From Candidatus Saccharimonadota bacterium (GTDB lineage Bacteria; Patescibacteriota; Saccharimonadia; Saccharimonadales; Saccharimonadaceae), in contig JAFRJZ010000012.1 of the NCBI GenBank assembly GCA_017431945.1, positions 1 through 36,491 of the forward strand: DNA of 36,491 bases, in the 5' to 3' direction. Made by a program: the position numbers and the translations under genes. The notes below the pieces were generated by a model that worked only from the letters and a program-made list of their open reading frames with translations, searched no databases and was not told the DNA's origin. How positions within the stretch are numbered: the first letter of the stretch is position 1; every line of letters starts with the position of its first letter. Shown here one piece after another: positions 4,798-36,491 of this stretch.

Positions 4798-4826
4798 ATT
4801 ATATCACTATTTGCGTTTTTTCGCAA
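4798..4826 (-). promoter_or_regulatory. rplU promoter
   Basis: TTGCGA (4821-4826) and TATAAT (4798-4803) are 17 bp apart on the minus strand. The promoter overlaps the stop codon of the upstream surface-protein gene (4807-4809). Confidence 0.65.
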
Positions 4827-5691
4827 CAGGTTTCTTTTTGGTTACTTTTCGCTTTGTATTTTTTACCGCATTGTGTGTCTTATACCAGTAGAATCCACCA
4901 CCAATAATCGCTGCTACTATCACCGACGCGATAATAATCTCCGCTGGTCCCGTTTCTGGCATCTCGCTCGGCGTTGATGTTGTCACTACCTCCTCGGTAT
5001 CCGGTGGCGCCGGCTCACCTTCGCCAGTCGCATCCAGGGTATACACTACCATCCCAGAATACTCAGCGCACCCCGGTATTACCCCATTTAATTTATCTAT
5101 ACCAATAAAAGTTCCTTTGTCAGTAAATAGACTAGTCGCCAATCCAGCCCCATTTGTTGGCCAATTATCATTCAAAACTTTCGCCGATGCTAAATGATAG
5201 TGCAAATATACATTCTCATCCGAAGTTAAGTAGGCTTCATCCCATACTTTTTCTGGGTTAGTGTTGCTCGCAGTGATTTTACCATCTACTTCACCCCCCT
5301 CGCCCGGTTTCACCACCGGCGAAAACCAAGATGACACTCTTACGCTTCGTGCCACCCCTGAATAATCATGTGTCTCATCATTAAAGGTCGCCGAGGCATT
5401 ATTGTGATAAAAAATCCAAACTTCATACGATTTACCAGGTTCTACTTTCAAATTATTCACATAAGTATTTTTATGACCGTCAGTAGAAATCTCGGCAATT
5501 CGCACAAAATCGCGCTCATCCCCTACTCCGGCATTATCAGTGATTGAGTTAAATACTGGATAAGTAGCCGGTTCGTTATTAGTAAACAGTTTACGTTCCG
5601 GCCCCCACGCCATCGCTGAGCTCGCCGGCAATGCTATCACCGCCAAAGTTGATATTGCTATACCACCCGCAATTTTATATTTTTTATTCAT
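4807..5691 (-). CDS. Secreted surface protein with sortase-type MPETG anchor
   Basis: This 294-residue protein begins with a signal peptide (MNKKYKIAGG, then a hydrophobic stretch to SSAMA, cleavage probably before WGPER). The ~210-residue extracellular part is rich in aromatic and acidic residues (WGPERKLFTNNEPATYPVF, ITDNAGVGDERDFV) and resembles a beta-rich domain; I name no family. A Thr/Pro linker leads to MPETG, a hydrophobic segment of about 20 residues, and a Lys/Arg-rich tail: the LPXTG-type sorting signal layout. It is probably wall- or membrane-anchored. Start: ATG at 5691 has GGAGG upstream and is followed directly by the signal peptide; longer versions of the frame only read through the gene before it. 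It overlaps the 1277-residue gene by 8 nt, so the two are coupled. No sortase gene is in the window. Confidence 0.8.
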   Translation of the reverse strand: MNKKYKIAGGIAISTLAVIALPASSAMAWGPERKLFTNNEPATYPVFNSITDNAGVGDERDFVRIAEISTDGHKNTYVNNLKVEPGKSYEVWIFYHNNASATFNDETHDYSGVARSVRVSSWFSPVVKPGEGGEVDGKITASNTNPEKVWDEAYLTSDENVYLHYHLASAKVLNDNWPTNGAGLATSLFTDKGTFIGIDKLNGVIPGCAEYSGMVVYTLDATGEGEPAPPDTEEVVTTSTPSEMPETGPAEIIIASVIVAAIIGGGFYWYKTHNAVKNTKRKVTKKKPVAKKRK

Positions 5692-8600
5692 TTTCGCCTC
5701 CTTCATCATGCGAATCATTATTACCACCGGAGTCACCACCGCCTCCGCCACCGCCAGAGTCATGAGAGCCACCACCTCCGCCGCCGCCAGAACCACGAGA
5801 AACACCAGAGTCGCCACCTCCACCGCCACTGCTAGGCTTGCTACCACTATTTCTGCTACCAGAATCATTACTAGACTTGTTGGAATCATTCCCAGAATTA
5901 TTGTCACTATTATTGTCGTTACCAGAATCGCTATCAGTAGAAGGCTTCTTTGTACCAACAGTATTCCTCACATCGTCATCCGTTGGGTCATCCTTTATTT
6001 CGCCACTATCGGTATCACCTTGCTTATTTCTATCTTCCTCGCTACCGGTCGGTCCGTTAGCCTCCGAAGCATTGCCATCTCCATGATCTTTTTCTGGTGT
6101 CACATCTTTATTCGGTTCTACATTTGGATCTACTTTGCCTTGCTGACCTTCATTTTGTGCTACCCTTCTCTCAGTATCAGGATCCTTTGCTTCAGGTTTT
6201 TCTGGTTCTTCTGGAGGATTCTCAGGCTCCTCAGGATTCTCAGGCTCCTCAGGATTCTCGGGTTCCTCGGGATTCTCGGGTTCCTCAGGATTCTCGGGTG
6301 GGTTCGGTCCAGGCGTCGGTGTATTTCCTCCAGTTCCAGGACGATGATGGTGATTACCACCGCCAGTACTGCCAGTAACTGTCTCCCCCACCGTCACATC
6401 ATCAGGTTCTGGTACCCAGACTATCTGACCACCACAATCTAGGCGTACTACAAATTCACCCGCTTGACCCTCTGGCACATTGTAAATTTCACGCAAATTA
6501 CCCGAAATATCATTGCCAGCTTCATCATACATTAAAATATTATTACCATTAACGTCTAGCAGTCTCAAGCCATGTCCAGACACGCCATTAATCGGTGTAG
6601 TCTGCAACACTGTCTTATCACCACCATTTGGATATTCATAAATTGATCTCGTATAAGGTGTCTCGGCAAAGTTCACCGATTCAATCTCACCTTCATCCAT
6701 TCTCGCCAAAATCTCATCCTGTGTGATATTCATGCTCGCTACATAATCTTCCGAATTCGCATCTGCTATATTATTTGCTAAACTATTTAATTCGCTTACA
6801 CTATCTACATCGCTACCGCCTTCTACATTAAGTGCTGTTTGCCACAGCGAAGTTTGCTCCGGCGATGTCGCAATACCACTCATCAACCCCTCAAACATCT
6901 CCGCTTCCGATTTATTACCGTTATATAGCGACGGACCCAAATTATTAGAGCTCAACTTACCAGGCAAATTATATACATCAATATTCTTGTCATAGGTCGT
7001 CCCCTCCTCTAGTACACGATTGCTTATTTCTTCACCATCCACTACGGCCGATTCACCTGGTACGATACCACCACCAGCTAATTGCTCTGGGTCAATCTCA
7101 CCGCCTGGCGTCGAAATCTTTGTCGTTTCTCCACTTTCAACATCTGTTATATTATATGTGTGAGCTTCCACTATCTCTGGCATATTAATTGAATTCACGC
7201 CGTCCCCCTCAATCGTAGTATACACTGTCATATTGCCATTACCGTCGTCACTCAACACTTCACCAAACCGTCCATCAAAACTCGTCACACCCCGACCGTC
7301 AGTTGAAAACATGCTAGCTTCTGGTTCATCTACTGGAATTCGAATTTGCCCATCTTCAATATCGGCAGTAAACACATCCATCTGGTGGTCTTCGTTTGCC
7401 GACATCGCAAACTCCATCCCGTCTACATCTCTACCACTCTTCGAGAACACATCCATCACATATTCATCGCCCTCAATGCGCGGATTACCGACCGATATAT
7501 CACCACCATCCCAACGCCTACTATTGATATGAGTAATCCTGTCCGGATTATCATCAATAAATTCACTCACACCTTGTGATTCAGCGGTAGTGGTAACTAG
7601 TTTATCAATATCATCGCCATCTTCTGATACCTCAATATTTATATCAGTACGTTCATTCAATTTTTCAAATACTTCAGACTTCAAATCACCTTCACTATTC
7701 CAATACTTAGCTCTATTGCTCGGATCCTCCAGCTCATTTTCAATAGCTTCAGCTGGTGATTTTTCAAAACCTTCAAACGGTGGCGGCGCTACATCGTCTG
7801 CCGTATCTTCTTCTCCATCAGCATTATCAAACATATTTCCAATAGATTCCTTGGCATTATCAACAGTATCATGAATTTCACCGGCAGCATCATGAAGCGC
7901 GTCTGTTACTCCCCCCACTTCTTCTATAACACCAACACCAGCACCAGCTGCACCACCAATCACCGCCCCCATTTTAGCACCTTCAATTATTGCTTCTCTG
8001 TGACGCTTTTTATCTTTATCTTCCTGTTTTTTAATATCTTTATTTAACTCATCCCTTGCCTCTTTTATATAACTATTTTCTTCGCTATCTTTATCACCAT
8101 ATAGCATATTCCAATCTTTTTGTTCCAGCATCCTTTCTAGGTTAGCAACACTTCTCCTCAACTTTCGCTTTTGTATTTCCCGCTTCACTTCGTCTTCACC
8201 TCCAAACAAATCTATGCCCTTAATTTCTTCCAACTCAAATCTTGCTTTGATATCGGCCAAAGTCTTCAGCTCCGATTCATTCAAGCTTTTACTTTTTCTT
8301 TTTGATAATTTATCAGCAAAATCATATAATTCTTTTGTTGTATCTTCTATATTAAGCATTTTGTATTCTGTCGCCTTTTCACCACCAAGTGCACTTCTCT
8401 TCTTTTCTGCTATAATCGCACGCTCAGCTTTCTTTTTAGCATTTTTTCCTCCATAAACCGCACCTACAACAACACCAGCCACGACACCTATACCAGTCGC
8501 CGTCAATGCAGCTTTTAAACCTCTTCTAGTCGCAACGCCACCAATCACCATGCCAACTCCCACCGCTGTACCAAGAGCGCCAGCACCCATACCAGCCAAC

Positions 8601-9517
8601 TTCATCACTTCTTTTGTAGTGATAGATAAACTTTCTTTTTGCGCTAAGCCAGCCTCCACTTGACCAGTGCTAAAATGTACATGATCTTCAAAGAATCTTT
8701 CTACCTCTTCTATGCTGTAATCGTGTTTGGCTTTTGCCCTTTCATCATAAAGCTGTTCCGCTACCCTCTTTGCTTCTACAATATAATTATTACCCCCTCC
8801 AACCTTACCTTCTATTTCTTTCTCAAAACCTGCTAAAATCTTTTTTAGTTGCCTATCACGATTTTTGCCTTTTTGTGGTAAGTTTTTTAAATCTATAATA
8901 TCTTTCGCTACTTTGTCTATCAAAGCTTGTTTTACTATATCGCGTTCTTTACCCAACTTTCCTTCTTCATTCTCATCCAATTCCCTTATACTTTCCTTAC
9001 CAGACAAGACCTGTATCTTCTCGTCTCTATTTCTGCTGATATCTTGATTATATCTGTGCTGTTCGGCAATCATATCTGCCATCTCTCTCTCCGCTTCTAA
9101 TCCATAATCACCCTCAAGTCCCGCATAGACGCCATTCTCTTCAATTCCTTTTAACTCTTTAGCAGCATGCTGAGCTAGCGCCACATCATATCCGACACCA
9201 AACTTTACTGTGTTTTTTGCAGTCTTAATCCAACCATCTTTTCCCATATGCCCAAAGGTATTTCTAACTGAATTTGTTAATGTTTTTAGTACCCTATTTA
9301 GCCCTTTCTCGTCACCCAAAACTCGGTGATTCTTAGCCCACTCTCTCTGCTCAGCTTCCAGTTTTTCTCTGGCTCTCTGCGCTGCAATATTTTTCTTACT
9401 CTCATCCGTAGCTTCTACGCCACCAGCAAAATACACATCTTTCAAAATCTTCCACTCGTTACTACTATCTTTATCGGTACTACTTTTGGGGTCTTTGTTC
9501 GCATTTTTGTCTGGCAT
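5684..9517 (-). CDS. Giant orphan protein with Gly-zipper membrane segments and Pro/Gly-rich tail
   Basis: This 1277-residue protein is not recognised as a family. Residues 1-300 are charged, helical and coiled-coil-like, with no signal peptide. Two Gly/Ala-rich hydrophobic stretches follow near 305-328 and 335-356 (GMGAGALGTAVGVGMVIGG; TGIGVVAGVVVGAVYGG), then another charged helical region and a third Gly-rich stretch near 509-540. Residues ~560-1060 are acidic and beta-like with many Asp/Asn turns. Then come ENPEEP hexapeptide repeats (near 1075-1100), an Asp/Asn/Ser-rich segment and a Gly/Ser-rich tail. The layout suggests a membrane-associated cell-surface or secretion-related fibre. AGGAGG precedes the ATG. 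Upstream the 120-residue gene ends 12 nt away; downstream it overlaps the sortase-type protein by 8 nt, so the three form an operon. Confidence 0.8.
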   Translation of the reverse strand: MPDKNANKDPKSSTDKDSSNEWKILKDVYFAGGVEATDESKKNIAAQRAREKLEAEQREWAKNHRVLGDEKGLNRVLKTLTNSVRNTFGHMGKDGWIKTAKNTVKFGVGYDVALAQHAAKELKGIEENGVYAGLEGDYGLEAEREMADMIAEQHRYNQDISRNRDEKIQVLSGKESIRELDENEEGKLGKERDIVKQALIDKVAKDIIDLKNLPQKGKNRDRQLKKILAGFEKEIEGKVGGGNNYIVEAKRVAEQLYDERAKAKHDYSIEEVERFFEDHVHFSTGQVEAGLAQKESLSITTKEVMKLAGMGAGALGTAVGVGMVIGGVATRRGLKAALTATGIGVVAGVVVGAVYGGKNAKKKAERAIIAEKKRSALGGEKATEYKMLNIEDTTKELYDFADKLSKRKSKSLNESELKTLADIKARFELEEIKGIDLFGGEDEVKREIQKRKLRRSVANLERMLEQKDWNMLYGDKDSEENSYIKEARDELNKDIKKQEDKDKKRHREAIIEGAKMGAVIGGAAGAGVGVIEEVGGVTDALHDAAGEIHDTVDNAKESIGNMFDNADGEEDTADDVAPPPFEGFEKSPAEAIENELEDPSNRAKYWNSEGDLKSEVFEKLNERTDINIEVSEDGDDIDKLVTTTAESQGVSEFIDDNPDRITHINSRRWDGGDISVGNPRIEGDEYVMDVFSKSGRDVDGMEFAMSANEDHQMDVFTADIEDGQIRIPVDEPEASMFSTDGRGVTSFDGRFGEVLSDDGNGNMTVYTTIEGDGVNSINMPEIVEAHTYNITDVESGETTKISTPGGEIDPEQLAGGGIVPGESAVVDGEEISNRVLEEGTTYDKNIDVYNLPGKLSSNNLGPSLYNGNKSEAEMFEGLMSGIATSPEQTSLWQTALNVEGGSDVDSVSELNSLANNIADANSEDYVASMNITQDEILARMDEGEIESVNFAETPYTRSIYEYPNGGDKTVLQTTPINGVSGHGLRLLDVNGNNILMYDEAGNDISGNLREIYNVPEGQAGEFVVRLDCGGQIVWVPEPDDVTVGETVTGSTGGGNHHHRPGTGGNTPTPGPNPPENPEEPENPEEPENPEEPENPEEPENPPEEPEKPEAKDPDTERRVAQNEGQQGKVDPNVEPNKDVTPEKDHGDGNASEANGPTGSEEDRNKQGDTDSGEIKDDPTDDDVRNTVGTKKPSTDSDSGNDNNSDNNSGNDSNKSSNDSGSRNSGSKPSSGGGGGDSGVSRGSGGGGGGGSHDSGGGGGGGDSGGNNDSHDEGGENE
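6216..6299 (-). repeat. 18-bp tandem repeat encoding ENPEEP
   Basis: At least four consecutive 18-bp units (6216-6287) and a partial fifth each encode the hexapeptide ENPEEP. Units differ by single synonymous T/G or A/G changes, so the copy number is likely to vary between strains. Confidence 0.85.
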
Positions 9518-9529
9518 TTTTCCTCCTAA

Positions 9530-9892
9530 CTACTCCGTCTTCACTTCTTCTGATTTTTGTTCATCAGGCTCTTCGCCTTTTAAATACTGCTCTTTAAATT
9601 CAATCAAGGTCTGCTCAATAATTGGCTCGGTATTAAGATTAGATTCTTCTATCAAAGCATTTACGCTCTCAAAACTAGCCGTATCATCATCCAGTGACAC
9701 ATCCAATTTATGGCGTTGTTCCGCCGGCAACTGCGCAATAATATTGCGATTAATATAATAAATCAACTTTTCTTTTAGTTCGCTCGCCATCCGTGCAAAA
9801 TCTTCTTCAGGTATATCACCCATACCCTTATCTATCAGCATCTGCTTAATAAACTGATCCATCAAAGCATCGTTTTCTTTATCTATATCCAT
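9530..9892 (-). CDS. Small acidic helical protein of unknown function
   Basis: This 120-residue soluble acidic protein is predicted mostly helical (MDIDKENDALMDQFIKQML, IPEEDFARMASELKEKLIYY, IIAQLPAEQRHKLD) with a Glu/Lys-rich end. It resembles short CPR proteins of unknown function that carry an LPEE/IPEE-type turn between helices, but I cannot assign a family with certainty. It starts at 9892 with GAAAGG upstream and ends 12 nt before the 1277-residue gene, so it is probably co-expressed with the envelope cluster, perhaps as an accessory or chaperone. That role is inference. Confidence 0.7.
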   Translation of the reverse strand: MDIDKENDALMDQFIKQMLIDKGMGDIPEEDFARMASELKEKLIYYINRNIIAQLPAEQRHKLDVSLDDDTASFESVNALIEESNLNTEPIIEQTLIEFKEQYLKGEEPDEQKSEEVKTE

Positions 9893-9991
9893 AGCGAACC
9901 TTTCGTTTTTTATATTAAATGACCTTGTATACTATTAGGTTACCACTTATGCTTAAAATCGTCAAGGCAAATCCCCCACTAGCACCCAATA

Positions 9992-12439
9992 TTACCAGCT
10001 ACCTCCACCACCCCCAGTGCTGTTCATAATATCATCTGTATAGGCATAGGTCATACCTTTCGCTTTCGTAGTATCTAGCGACCACTCACTACAACCTGGC
10101 CAATAACTCGTATAGCCATTACTGCACGATGCCTCGCACACCACCACATTACTACTCGTCACACCCATCACCACACCAGTGTGGTTATAGGTATCCGTGC
10201 TAAACACCGCATACGGCCTCGGTTCATTACCAGTTTTTAACCCCTTAGTTGCACCTAGGTGCTTTACCATCAAATTACCATTTACGGTATTTGCCCACTT
10301 CGGCCCAATTGATGTGTATTTATTCAAAAACCACTGCGAAAACGCCACACAGTTGTTTAGTGTACCACCCCCACAACCCGCATCCAACACATAGGCACTC
10401 TTAAACATATAGCTACCCGTCTTTTTCTTTGACGCCTCTTGGCGATAAGTTTCCATCCACGCCTTTGCTTCTGCCAAGGTCATCCCGCCTTCTTTTAGCC
10501 CAGTATCACTGTTAGTACTCTGGCATCTATCACAATTCTCCGCATTACTGCTCACCGCGGTACTCTCCGCCCCATCAGACGAAGAATTACCGCCACCAGA
10601 CACCGTATCTCCACCTACGCTTGATTTACCTTTTTCAATCACTACGCCGCTAGTTGAATTCTTCGCATTTTTTGCTCGCAAAATTATCATCACCGAGTCT
10701 AAACTATCTTCTATTCCTAAATACATCCCACCCTTCCAGTTGTGGTGTGCATCCACCCGGTATTTCTTGCCATTTTGATCTTCCACATATATCCATACAT
10801 GTCCACTTTTTAACACCACATCACCTGGTTTCAAGGCTGACTTTGAAGTCGTTCTAATCACATTCCATTTCTTGCTATCACCCTTGCTCGCCAAAGCAAA
10901 CTGTTCATCTAGACCCCTTGGAAAACTTTTATCCACACCTGAATAACGCACTACCGTCGCCGCCCCTACATCACACGAAGCTCCCGCATTAGTCTGTCTC
11001 GCCCAATCACGCTTCGGAAATACCTTATCAATAGCTATTTTAAATGCCTCGGTCGGTTTACCGCCATGATACAACTTCTTACTATCTTTTGTTCCTAATG
11101 GCCACGCCAAACACACCGCCGTACTATTTACGTCCATCGTATTTTGCTGGCAACTACTCGTCACACATTTTGGCGTCCCTTGCGTACGATAAATATGATA
11201 TTCCGCTCCGCTCTCAGCAAAGAAATCCGTATATCCCGCCCATCGTTCATCATTTGACGCCGACAGGATATAACCTTTACCGTCTCTCTGTCCATATATC
11301 TCAATATGTTTTCTCACGCCACCAACAATTTTTACCCTAATATCACCTGGCTGATAAGTCGCTTCCTTTGTCGCGTCCCCTTCCACTCGTGTGTAAATCT
11401 TTGGTGTTGCTATCATATAATCCTCTTGCGTTGCCACATTTCCCCAAGGAATATTATCATCCACTCCTGCCGCTCTCACTACTACCGCCACAAACCGATC
11501 ACAACTCTCTCCGTTTTTGTAACAATCGCCAGGGCATTTCACCGATTTTTGTGCCTTTAAGTACGCCTCGGTTGGCCCCTTTGCGCTCTCCTCCCTTGTC
11601 TGATCCGCCAGCTCCCACGCCTTATCATTAATATTAGAAGTCACGGTACTATCCGCCACTCCCACTGTCGACGAGCTTTCCCCATTACTGGTAAAAGTTT
11701 TACTACCATATTTATCATACATCTCCTGTGCCGTCGCTCGTCTTAGTGGTCTTTGTCCCGCTATATTAGCCGGAATCTCCACATGTTCCAAAAAGAAATC
11801 CGCGGCACTAGTCACCGTCCTCTGATTATAAATACCATGATAACTCGGCACCGTATCTAATTCTCTTTTCAAATATTGTAATTCCAATTGATAAAGCCGG
11901 TTCGCCGTTTTATGACCATATTTGTCAATAAAATCATCGCCCGACATGCTCCCAAGCGTCTCGTCCTCAAAATATTTTATCATTTCTGCATCTTGTGATT
12001 TCACATAGTTCAAAAGTTTTACTCGTCGCCCAAACGACCATTGAACCAACCCCATCCCCATTTGCGTACCACTATTCCAAATGTCGCCACTTTTGCCTCC
12101 TTCGCGTCGCACCGGTCCATAATTACCATCTTCATATTTAATATTTCCCATCACCCCCGCCGCCTGCTCCGCCGTCAAAAAACTCCTCAACCCTGACCAC
12201 ACTTTTTCTTCTGCCGTATTACCCGATATCGTAACTTCTCCGCTCAACGAATCACTACCGCCCGCATCCGAACAGGGCTCATAAAACACGATTTGATTTT
12301 GTGAAAAAATTGTCTCTTCTTCCTTGGTTAGCGGACTACTATTCTCTGCATACGCTTCACTACTTATAGTCAATCCCGTAGCAAAAACTAACGCCAATAC
12401 CAACCCAAAAATCCTATGTTTGCGTATCAGACTAAACAT
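9992..12439 (-). CDS. Secreted multi-domain peptidoglycan hydrolase (lysozyme-like plus three Cys/His peptidase-like domains)
   Basis: This 815-residue protein starts with a signal peptide (residues 1-31, SSEAYA). Residues ~75-240 match the phage-tail lysozyme family: LTAEQAAGVMGNIKYEDGNYG, MGMGLVQWSFGRR, then QLEYL-type helices and AADFFLEHVEIP. Three NlpC/P60- or CHAP-like segments follow, each pairing a Cys with a downstream His: SCDRFV (~311) with KHIEIYG (~378); SCDVGAATVV (~489) with GHVWIYV (~546); NNCVAFSQWF (~695) with NHTGVVMGV (~755). Linkers are Ser/Gly/Thr-rich and the end is GGGGGSW. It would cut both glycan and peptide bonds of peptidoglycan outside the cell, for self-remodelling or attack on a host wall. 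Whether all three Cys domains are active is unclear; the first two are the more degenerate. A terminator lies upstream at 12467-12499. Confidence 0.8.
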   Translation of the reverse strand: MFSLIRKHRIFGLVLALVFATGLTISSEAYAENSSPLTKEEETIFSQNQIVFYEPCSDAGGSDSLSGEVTISGNTAEEKVWSGLRSFLTAEQAAGVMGNIKYEDGNYGPVRREGGKSGDIWNSGTQMGMGLVQWSFGRRVKLLNYVKSQDAEMIKYFEDETLGSMSGDDFIDKYGHKTANRLYQLELQYLKRELDTVPSYHGIYNQRTVTSAADFFLEHVEIPANIAGQRPLRRATAQEMYDKYGSKTFTSNGESSSTVGVADSTVTSNINDKAWELADQTREESAKGPTEAYLKAQKSVKCPGDCYKNGESCDRFVAVVVRAAGVDDNIPWGNVATQEDYMIATPKIYTRVEGDATKEATYQPGDIRVKIVGGVRKHIEIYGQRDGKGYILSASNDERWAGYTDFFAESGAEYHIYRTQGTPKCVTSSCQQNTMDVNSTAVCLAWPLGTKDSKKLYHGGKPTEAFKIAIDKVFPKRDWARQTNAGASCDVGAATVVRYSGVDKSFPRGLDEQFALASKGDSKKWNVIRTTSKSALKPGDVVLKSGHVWIYVEDQNGKKYRVDAHHNWKGGMYLGIEDSLDSVMIILRAKNAKNSTSGVVIEKGKSSVGGDTVSGGGNSSSDGAESTAVSSNAENCDRCQSTNSDTGLKEGGMTLAEAKAWMETYRQEASKKKTGSYMFKSAYVLDAGCGGGTLNNCVAFSQWFLNKYTSIGPKWANTVNGNLMVKHLGATKGLKTGNEPRPYAVFSTDTYNHTGVVMGVTSSNVVVCEASCSNGYTSYWPGCSEWSLDTTKAKGMTYAYTDDIMNSTGGGGGSW

Positions 12440-12738: not shown

Positions 12739-12767
12739 ATTATAGCACACATCGCTAAATTTGTCAA
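12739..12767 (-). promoter_or_regulatory. Near-consensus promoter of the 49-residue protein
   Basis: TTGACA (12762-12767) and TATAAT (12739-12744) are 17 bp apart, with TGC next to the -10. It lies just downstream of the ileS stop. Confidence 0.85.
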
Positions 12768-28446: not shown

Positions 28447-28523
28447 GGGGATATAGCTCAGCTGGTTAGAGCGCGTCACTGATAATGACGAGGTCTGTGG
28501 TTCAAGTCCACATATCCCCACCA
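28447..28523 (+). tRNA. tRNA-Ile (GAT)
   Basis: This 77-nt gene has acceptor arms GGGGATA/TATCCCC, D-arm GCTC..GAGC, anticodon stem CGTCA/TGACG with loop CTGATAA (anticodon GAT), TTCAAGT T-loop, and an encoded CCA. It lies directly after the palindromic element E4. tRNA-Ala(TGC) lies 716 bp downstream; in many bacteria this pair sits in the 16S-23S spacer, which is not the case here. Confidence 0.97.
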
Positions 28524-28843
28524 ATCTTACCCAGGTCGGCATTTCAAACCGCTTTTTTAGTAATAATTCCCCCTGTTAAGCATCTTGGAAACAGGGCATA
28601 TTTTGTGCCAAAAACGTACACTCTACCCCTATCAAAATATACGTTATCTAATCGCTTCTCTGTATTTTTCTTGCGAAACAATACTCTATGTATAGTTATG
28701 TAATATTTTCTCTACAACAATTATATCATACACGCCAATATTCTCCTCATCAATATTTTCTTTTGAATTGCCATACTTAATGGTATAATAACATTACCTA
28801 CACAGTATATACGATAATAGATAAAGGTAAGGGGCATTTAAAG
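28524..28843. other. AT-rich intergenic stretch
   Basis: Apart from a promoter for the next gene (TTTTGA 28761-28766, 17 bp, TATAAT 28784-28789) I see no supportable gene. A minus-strand open stretch near 28685-28789 has no start or ribosome site. Confidence 0.5.
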
Positions 28844-29152
28844 ATGAAAATTATAACAATATGTGGCAGCATGAAATTCATTAATGAAATGATGAATATA
28901 GGTGTGAAAATGGAGCTAGACGAAAACTGTATATTAATGCCTATATATAGTCCTTCAAAATCTCATAAAAATGACTTTACAGAAGAAGAAATAATAATTT
29001 TAGATAAAATGCATAGAGAAAAAATAAAACTATCAGATGCTATTTTGGTTGTAAATGTTAACGGTTATATAGGTAACAGTACCAAAAGTGAAATAGAGTT
29101 TGCCAAATCATTAAATAAAGAAATTATTTATTATACTGATTTGGTAAGATAA
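28844..29152 (+). CDS. Nucleoside 2-deoxyribosyltransferase-like protein
   Basis: This 102-residue protein has the Rossmann-like pattern of the small nucleoside-deoxyribosyltransferase-like group: MKIITICGSMKF at the start, the charged helix FTEEEIIILDKMHREKIKLSDAILVVNVNGYIG, then STKSEIEFAKSLNKEIIYY. The Glu in SEIEFA is at the position of the family's catalytic or ribose-binding Glu. Members salvage or hydrolyse nucleosides and nucleotides; the substrate is unknown. The gene is much richer in A/T than its housekeeping neighbours and lies between two tRNA genes, a common landing place for transferred DNA, so acquisition is likely. AAGG lies upstream of the ATG. Confidence 0.75.
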   Translation: MKIITICGSMKFINEMMNIGVKMELDENCILMPIYSPSKSHKNDFTEEEIIILDKMHREKIKLSDAILVVNVNGYIGNSTKSEIEFAKSLNKEIIYYTDLVR

Positions 29153-29238
29153 TTTCGCAGCATTCTCTTACTCTGCTTTAAAAAAAGTTCCTAATTTTAA
29201 ACCTTTATGATATAATAACTCATAGATAATCAGATTAT

Positions 29239-29315
29239 GGGGTAGTAGCTCAGCTGATTAGAGCGCCGCCTTTGCAAGGCGGAGGTCTGGGGTTTGAATC
29301 CCCACTACTCCACCA
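29239..29315 (+). tRNA. tRNA-Ala (TGC)
   Basis: This 77-nt gene has acceptor arms GGGGTAG/CTACTCC, including the G3-U70 wobble pair that identifies tRNA-Ala, anticodon stem CCGCC/GGCGG with loop TTTGCAA (anticodon TGC), T-loop TTTGAATC, and an encoded CCA. Confidence 0.97.

Positions 29316-36335: not shown

Positions 36336-36491
<156 letters not shown>

Follow-up and report, generated by a model that had tools for sequence, protein, structure and literature searches.

A conserved three-gene envelope module beside a probably relocated VirB1-like hydrolase in a Saccharibacteria genome

Saccharibacteria are tiny bacteria, and the cultured ones live on other bacteria. Little is known of the ways in which Patescibacteria recognise other bacteria and hold on to them, and we know of no identified hosts of gut Saccharibacteria. 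The present work concerns four adjacent genes, HYD815, SMALL, GIANT and MPETG, which encode a hydrolase, a small acidic protein, a very long membrane protein and a surface protein with an MPETG motif, respectively. They lie on a 36,491-nt stretch of DNA (the window) from Candidatus Saccharimonadota bacterium (assembly GCA_017431945.1, contig JAFRJZ010000012.1). The source genome is 728 kb in size, and its nearest named relatives are Saccharibacteria from ruminant guts. Two publications bear on such genes. In a transposon sequencing (Tn-seq) study of Southlakia epibionticum, the type IV secretion system (T4SS), the type IV pili (T4P) and several glycan-binding envelope proteins or putative adhesins were essential; the main text of that study does not name the module of SMALL, GIANT and MPETG (PMC10633639). 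VirB1-like hydrolases with CHAP domains and the T4SS of Patescibacteria are covered by a T4SS review (PMC12857230).

The four open reading frames are all on the minus strand, in the order HYD815, SMALL, GIANT and MPETG from the ileS side (Table 1). They were first noticed in a preliminary description made from the sequence alone. All four are present where it placed them, and the 8-nt overlap of GIANT and MPETG is exact (5684-5691). The block is not closed, since rplU begins 38 nt past MPETG. In relatives, the recurring gene order is ftsA-ftsZ-...-ileS-SMALL-GIANT-MPETG-rplU-parA-parB-relA. Conservation of the slot between ileS and rplU was assessed on 39 named Saccharibacteria contigs with both of these border genes in view. 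The GIANT position holds a protein of at least 400 aa in all 39 contigs, MPETG is found in 38, SMALL is detected by its profile in 28, and all three genes occur together in 27. The hydrolase is present in the slot of only one of the 39; when about 20 same-genus loci are considered as well, it is seen there only in the window species and in L093, a sheep ileum sequence that is the closest relative found. This shows that the four genes are a composite and not one ancestral unit, and that SMALL, GIANT and MPETG form a conserved envelope module. The undescribed multi-gene envelope system proposed in the preliminary description, for which a neighbourhood comparison had been suggested, thus stands for these three genes, which are kept together in relatives, and falls for the hydrolase, which is not kept with them.

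The preliminary description assigned one lysozyme-like and three Cys/His domains to the hydrolase. Pfam recognises a Phage_lysozyme2 domain at residues 88-244 (3.5e-15) and a CHAP domain at residues 694-769 (2.1e-6); the two middle Cys/His domains, which are NlpC/P60-like, are read from motifs, and a Pfam NlpC/P60 match was obtained only for the paralogue on contig C6 of the same genome, which is 46% identical to HYD815. No relatives of the middle domains were found in the PDB, where the search returned one spurious match. HYD815 has the domain content by which VirB1-like proteins are defined, being a secreted protein with a lysozyme- or transglycosylase-like domain plus CHAP or NlpC. At other loci of the genus, the hydrolase family occurs in a cassette together with a PEGA-like protein and a membrane protein of 240-263 aa. 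In G010 (L080) it lies beside genes for PrgI, TraC-like and TraG P-loop (VirB4-like) proteins, and similar blocks are present in L068, L069, L071, L072, L075 and L079, with an additional weak TrbL/VirB6 match in L069. The cassette of G011 (L055) is situated near the slot, between rplU and parA, and L093 has retained a 189-aa relative of the cassette membrane partner behind its hydrolase. HYD815 itself is outside any T4SS locus, between ileS and SMALL. Because its relatives reside in T4SS loci and a hydrolase stands in the slot only in the window species and L093, HYD815 is best read as a duplicated and moved copy of a VirB1-like Saccharibacteria T4SS hydrolase. Judging from synteny and relatedness, it would have moved in behind ileS before the window species and L093 diverged.

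GIANT has no match in Pfam or NCBIfam. A first search with the single sequence gave almost no matches, and default BLAST failed to find the sister protein owing to biased composition; an alignment without composition correction gave 54% for GIANT and its sister. The proteins found at the GIANT position in relatives are either short A types with one strong hydrophobic helix or long B types with a Gly-rich hairpin. Iterated profile searches join 92 of 100 slot proteins into one component. There are few matches outside the slot, and most of the other matches are contig-truncated slot proteins or giants adjacent to SMALL genes. The Gly-rich hydrophobic stretches and the repeat tail attributed earlier to this 1277-aa protein are present; its description as a species-specific orphan was rejected, as profiles recover its family. 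A distal domain common to the A and B types is only suggested by a B-type distal profile, which finds a few A-type proteins (best 8.5e-8). The A-type proteins look N-in/C-out, and a B-type protein would need the weak third hydrophobic stretch as a membrane helix to bring its C-terminus outward. In G003 (L052:7446-15230), tandem SMALL-GIANT pairs, one of the A type and one of the B type, flank MPETG on either side.

GIANT carries a net charge of about -114, and its residues C1028 and Q1031 are invariant in relatives. The amino acid identity between the window and L093 is 88% for MPETG, 73% for SMALL, 69% for the hydrolase and 59% for GIANT, and about 94% for rplU, parB and relA. The rate of nonsynonymous change (dN) of GIANT in this comparison is 0.33 overall versus 0.02-0.04 for the flanking genes; it is 0.086 for residues 861-1045, and divergence is fastest in the N-terminal part and in the tail. 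Positive selection was considered and rejected, since dN/dS nowhere exceeds 1 and the synonymous rate (dS) is saturated.

SMALL matches the Pfam model DUF5663 (PF18908) with an E-value of 0.001 and 20 bits, below the gathering cut-off of 23.7. The same model matches 8 of 15 SMALL relatives at E <0.1 (best 4.1e-7), and the member in L184 reaches 35.4 bits. A SMALL profile built from 15 proteins matches 54 of 287 genomes drawn across Patescibacteria. Of the 14 inspected loci, 12 lie outside the window's family; every locus has a protein of 870-2103 aa at most three genes from SMALL, and none of the 171 other genes at these loci is that long. Searched against 2298 proteins, a profile of six SMALL-adjacent giants retrieved only SMALL-adjacent giants and one Nanosyncoccus GIANT. 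A second round on this set brought in the remaining B-type proteins of the genus, and a third reached the window GIANT at 1.2e-22 and also drew some A-type slot proteins at 1e-13 to 1e-7; the scores carry composition bias. As judged by these profiles, SMALL and GIANT are a Patescibacteria-wide pair. A literature search found no paper that mentions DUF5663 and none that describes its constant giant neighbour.

The third member of the module, MPETG, consists of an N-terminal signal, the MPETG motif, a hydrophobic stretch and a basic, KR-rich tail. A motif of the form LP/IP/MPxTGP is present in 62 of 73 MPETG relatives (LPxTGP in 55 of the 73), and the genome contains two sortase genes (PF04203, above cut-off). 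The sorting signal and the genomic sortases mark MPETG as a sortase-type surface protein, as the preliminary description had predicted. The family occurs in 173 of 198 Saccharimonadales genomes, a count obtained with a profile that includes the DUF11-type repeats of long members, so that some weak matches may be to the repeats. Outside the Saccharibacteria class, the domain profile gives only weak matches, in about 14 of the genomes drawn across the phylum, and no MPETG domain was found in phages. AlphaFold2 models the 200-aa domain as a beta-sandwich (pLDDT about 97), behind which come a linker and a single helix. Foldseek returned no match with E below 1e-3. The top matches of VIA-align 2 were a Streptococcus sanguinis protein, a Clostridium perfringens pilin, CNA and Cnm (Z 5.3, 4.6, 3.9 and 3.8), and a comparison of the MPETG sequence with solved structures gave nothing credible. 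These weak fold matches of the model agree with an adhesin-like domain without proving one, and the absence of a strong match does not show that the fold is new. A second, divergent module is located on contig C1 of the same genome (L046:9335-12238); it encodes a 420-aa GIANT-like protein and a 439-aa MPETG paralogue with a DUF11-type repeat, followed by proteins of 263 aa and 910 aa that are kin of those beside the hydrolases and in T4SS loci.

The MPETG domain was also detected on five contigs labelled or looking like Lachnospiraceae or Eubacteriaceae. Lachnospiraceae bacterium 3-1 (L155:10079-10668) and a Saccharibacterium (L107:10076-10665) share 590 nt with 88.6% DNA identity, and a Eubacteriaceae metagenome-assembled genome (MAG, L148:9693-10262) shares 570 nt with L117:10046-10615 at 97.5%. 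The sharing is limited to the globular domain, because signal peptide, linker and anchor differ in both pairs. In a phylogenetic tree, the five Firmicute copies are nested among Saccharibacteria and attach at different places, with strong support for two of these attachments, L155 with L107 (support 99/100) and L125/L129 with L102 (100/98); that of L127 with L109 has 100/75. A group statistic does not formally exclude a single origin of these copies, and the bootstrap had not settled. The domain is rare in the carrier family, being present in 4 of 298 other genomes, some of them with distant versions. The carrier genomes are 2.3-5.7 Mb in size, and a tyrosine recombinase lies near the domain gene in two of them. 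No SMALL gene was detected in the five carrier genomes searched, an empty answer obtained with no positive control. Contamination as the sole cause of the Firmicute copies was considered; the carrier genome sizes and a shared stretch that stops inside the genes speak against it, but metagenome assemblies make up four of the five original carriers.

The wide and syntenic distribution of the domain in Saccharibacteria and its patchy occurrence in Lachnospiraceae favour transfer from the former to the latter. We infer from these comparisons that the globular domain of MPETG probably jumped repeatedly into gut Lachnospiraceae, which points to contact between both groups. No paper on gene transfer between Saccharibacteria and Lachnospiraceae was found in a literature search. 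More distant relatives of the domain, with about 30% identity, are encoded on one Streptomyces and one Cryobacterium plasmid. Occurrence in free-living lineages, which the preliminary description had named as an argument against its proposal, applies to no part of the module but the MPETG domain, through the copies in some Lachnospiraceae and those on the two actinobacterial plasmids. A Merdimonas MAG (L127:659-2254) encodes a 531-aa protein that has the domain at its C-terminus; this protein also contains a membrane helix, and its N-terminal part is unrelated and has no Pfam match. Furthermore, a stretch of 40-52 nt recurs in L155 (1146-1197, 2704-2744 and 14374-14429) and L107 (5494-5545 and 11046-11086); its sequence resembles the 3′ terminus of FISUMP-type genes, and it may serve as a target for homing or recombination.

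We propose, with a probability of about one half, that the locus comprises a conserved surface-display module beside a moved-in VirB1-like hydrolase, and that the putative function of the MPETG domain is contact with other bacteria. GIANT would reside in the cytoplasmic membrane with its large helical N-terminal part inside. SMALL, which is made just before GIANT, may bind this inner part and aid folding or insertion, and the distal domain and the Pro-rich stalk would face outward. MPETG is likely to be exported via its signal peptide, cut by sortase at the MPETG motif and displayed on the wall close to GIANT, where its beta-sandwich domain could touch molecules of neighbouring bacteria. Such contact would be in keeping with the repeated capture of this domain alone by Lachnospiraceae, which may use it to occupy the same partner, as a decoy or for exclusion, or for adhesion of their own. 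Several points weigh against this proposal. The outward topology of GIANT is deduced from hydropathy and composition, because its AlphaFold2 model, built with 7 sequences, has a pLDDT of 48.5 and does not allow interpretation. Distal glycosyltransferase-2 (GT2)-like domains occur in the giants L188:8840-12574, L184:3610-9033 and L186:10738-15414 of other lineages, above the Pfam cut-off in L188 only. Enzymes of this type are normally cytoplasmic, which argues against a universally outward C-terminus. Leave-one-out tests recognised 3 of 13 A-type distal domains, and the profile links from giant to giant may partly follow biased composition. The dN/dS values indicate purifying selection and not an arms race. 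A few MPETG relatives have IVxTG instead of LPxTG, and the structural matches of the domain do not exceed a Z of 5.3.

Purifying selection throughout and the GT2-like domain of some giants count in favour of the main rival, according to which SMALL and GIANT make up a structural envelope scaffold of Patescibacteria that is linked to division, with MPETG as a wall-layer protein, the whole serving the cell's own envelope and not host contact. The phylum-wide occurrence of the pair speaks for it, as do the position of the Saccharibacteria slot next to ftsA/ftsZ, parA and parB and the location of SMALL and GIANT between ftsA and ftsZ in G233 (L185:5841-15453). However, most of the fetched pairs outside Saccharibacteria have other neighbours, and the rapid divergence of GIANT and the sharing of the MPETG domain with Lachnospiraceae would be unusual for a scaffold; we regard this explanation as somewhat unlikely. 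A distinctly unlikely extension of the contact idea holds that SMALL-GIANT is a Patescibacteria-wide envelope complex to which Saccharibacteria added MPETG as a sortase-anchored contact protein. Gut Lachnospiraceae would have captured only its contact domain, repeatedly, and would present it on signals and anchors of their own to mislead or exclude such epibionts. If true, gut Saccharibacteria would have Lachnospiraceae among their hosts or targets.

The remaining two explanations tie the module to secretion or to the hydrolase. That SMALL, GIANT and MPETG are an accessory part of the Saccharibacteria T4SS is very doubtful: 12 of the 14 fetched pairs are not beside recognised T4SS genes, and the T4SS loci of the genus itself lie elsewhere, in fetched stretches that contain no SMALL or MPETG gene. 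Yet in G389 (L190) SMALL and GIANT are embedded in a T4SS locus that also holds genes of the PrgI-like, VirB4-like and TrbC/VirB2 pilin kinds, T4SS pilin genes are near the pair in L191, and it is a T4SS-type hydrolase that moved beside the module in the window species. The preliminary description had taken all four genes as one apparatus for attaching to and opening a host cell wall. The common strand, the short gaps, the perfect promoter-like site before the hydrolase and the identical gene order in L093 would suit it, but none of the other same-genus or two-border loci has the hydrolase in the slot, and the hydrolase family goes with T4SS genes; we consider a single apparatus highly improbable. 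The original idea is only partly supported. The hydrolase relatives occur with PrgI, VirB4-like and TrbL/VirB6-like genes in the T4SS locus of the genus; the opening of a host wall would therefore be a T4SS-linked notion that does not extend to the other three genes.

Table 1. Features of the four-gene block; positions refer to the window
Feature	Position	Strand	Basis
HYD815, secreted peptidoglycan hydrolase, 815 aa	9992-12439	-	Pfam; paralogue; T4SS-locus relatives
SMALL, acidic DUF5663-like cytoplasmic protein, 120 aa	9530-9892	-	Pfam, below cut-off; relatives above
GIANT, membrane protein of B type, 1277 aa	5684-9517	-	open reading frame; same-genus relatives; iterated profiles
GIANT, Gly-rich hydrophobic hairpin of two adjacent stretches, residues 307-358	8444-8599	-	hydropathy
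GIANT, third, weaker Gly-rich hydrophobic stretch, about residues 514-533	7919-7978	-	sequence and alignment; below hydropathy threshold
GIANT, most constrained part, residues 861-1045, with invariant Cys1028 (CGGQ motif)	6383-6937	-	dN; alignment
GIANT, Pro/Glu repeat stalk and Gly-rich tail	5684-6304	-	sequence
MPETG, sortase-type surface protein, 294 aa, ATG at 5691	4807-5691	-	sequence; relatives
MPETG, beta-sandwich domain, portion common to Lachnospiraceae genes	5014-5613	-	AlphaFold2; DNA identity
MPETG, sorting signal (MPETGP motif, hydrophobic helix and first part of the basic tail)	4876-4962	-	motif in relatives; sortases
Sigma-70-like promoter between ileS and HYD815, perfect TTGACA-17-TATAAT, extended -10	12739-12767	-	consensus match only

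The distance from ileS to HYD815 is 335 nt, HYD815 and SMALL are separated by 99 nt, and SMALL and GIANT by 12 nt. The start of MPETG is preceded by a strong AGGAGG site. A second, weaker sigma-70-like site, recognised by pattern match only, is located directly ahead of rplU, and no known RNA families were found within or near the four-gene block. At the contig edge, the window contains the 3′ end of a 16S rRNA gene (36336-36491). Genes for tRNA-Ile and tRNA-Ala are located at 28447-29315, 7 kb from the 16S end, and no 23S match was obtained within the window.

A three-gene module kept at one locus across Saccharibacteria and built on a phylum-wide pair offers an obvious target for knock-out and labelling experiments. 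As to possible partners, the sharing of a single domain with Lachnospiraceae is a concrete and testable pointer.

The genes of the locus resemble described systems to different degrees. DUF5663 (PF18908), the model matched by SMALL below the cut-off and by its relatives, represents a family of unknown function. Like the VirB1-like hydrolases PrgK, TraG of pIP501 and Orf14 of Tn916 (PMC12857230), HYD815 combines a lysozyme-like domain with CHAP and has relatives in PrgI/VirB4 loci; unlike them, it carries two extra Cys/His domains and is located outside a T4SS locus. MPETG shares with the sortase-anchored LPXTG adhesins of Gram-positive bacteria, such as CNA, Cnm and pilins, a signal peptide, an LPXTG-like motif, a helix, a basic tail and a beta-sandwich. 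It differs from these adhesins in having no sequence kinship to solved relatives and only a weak fold match, and it is further distinguished by a longer basic tail and by its coupling to a giant membrane protein.

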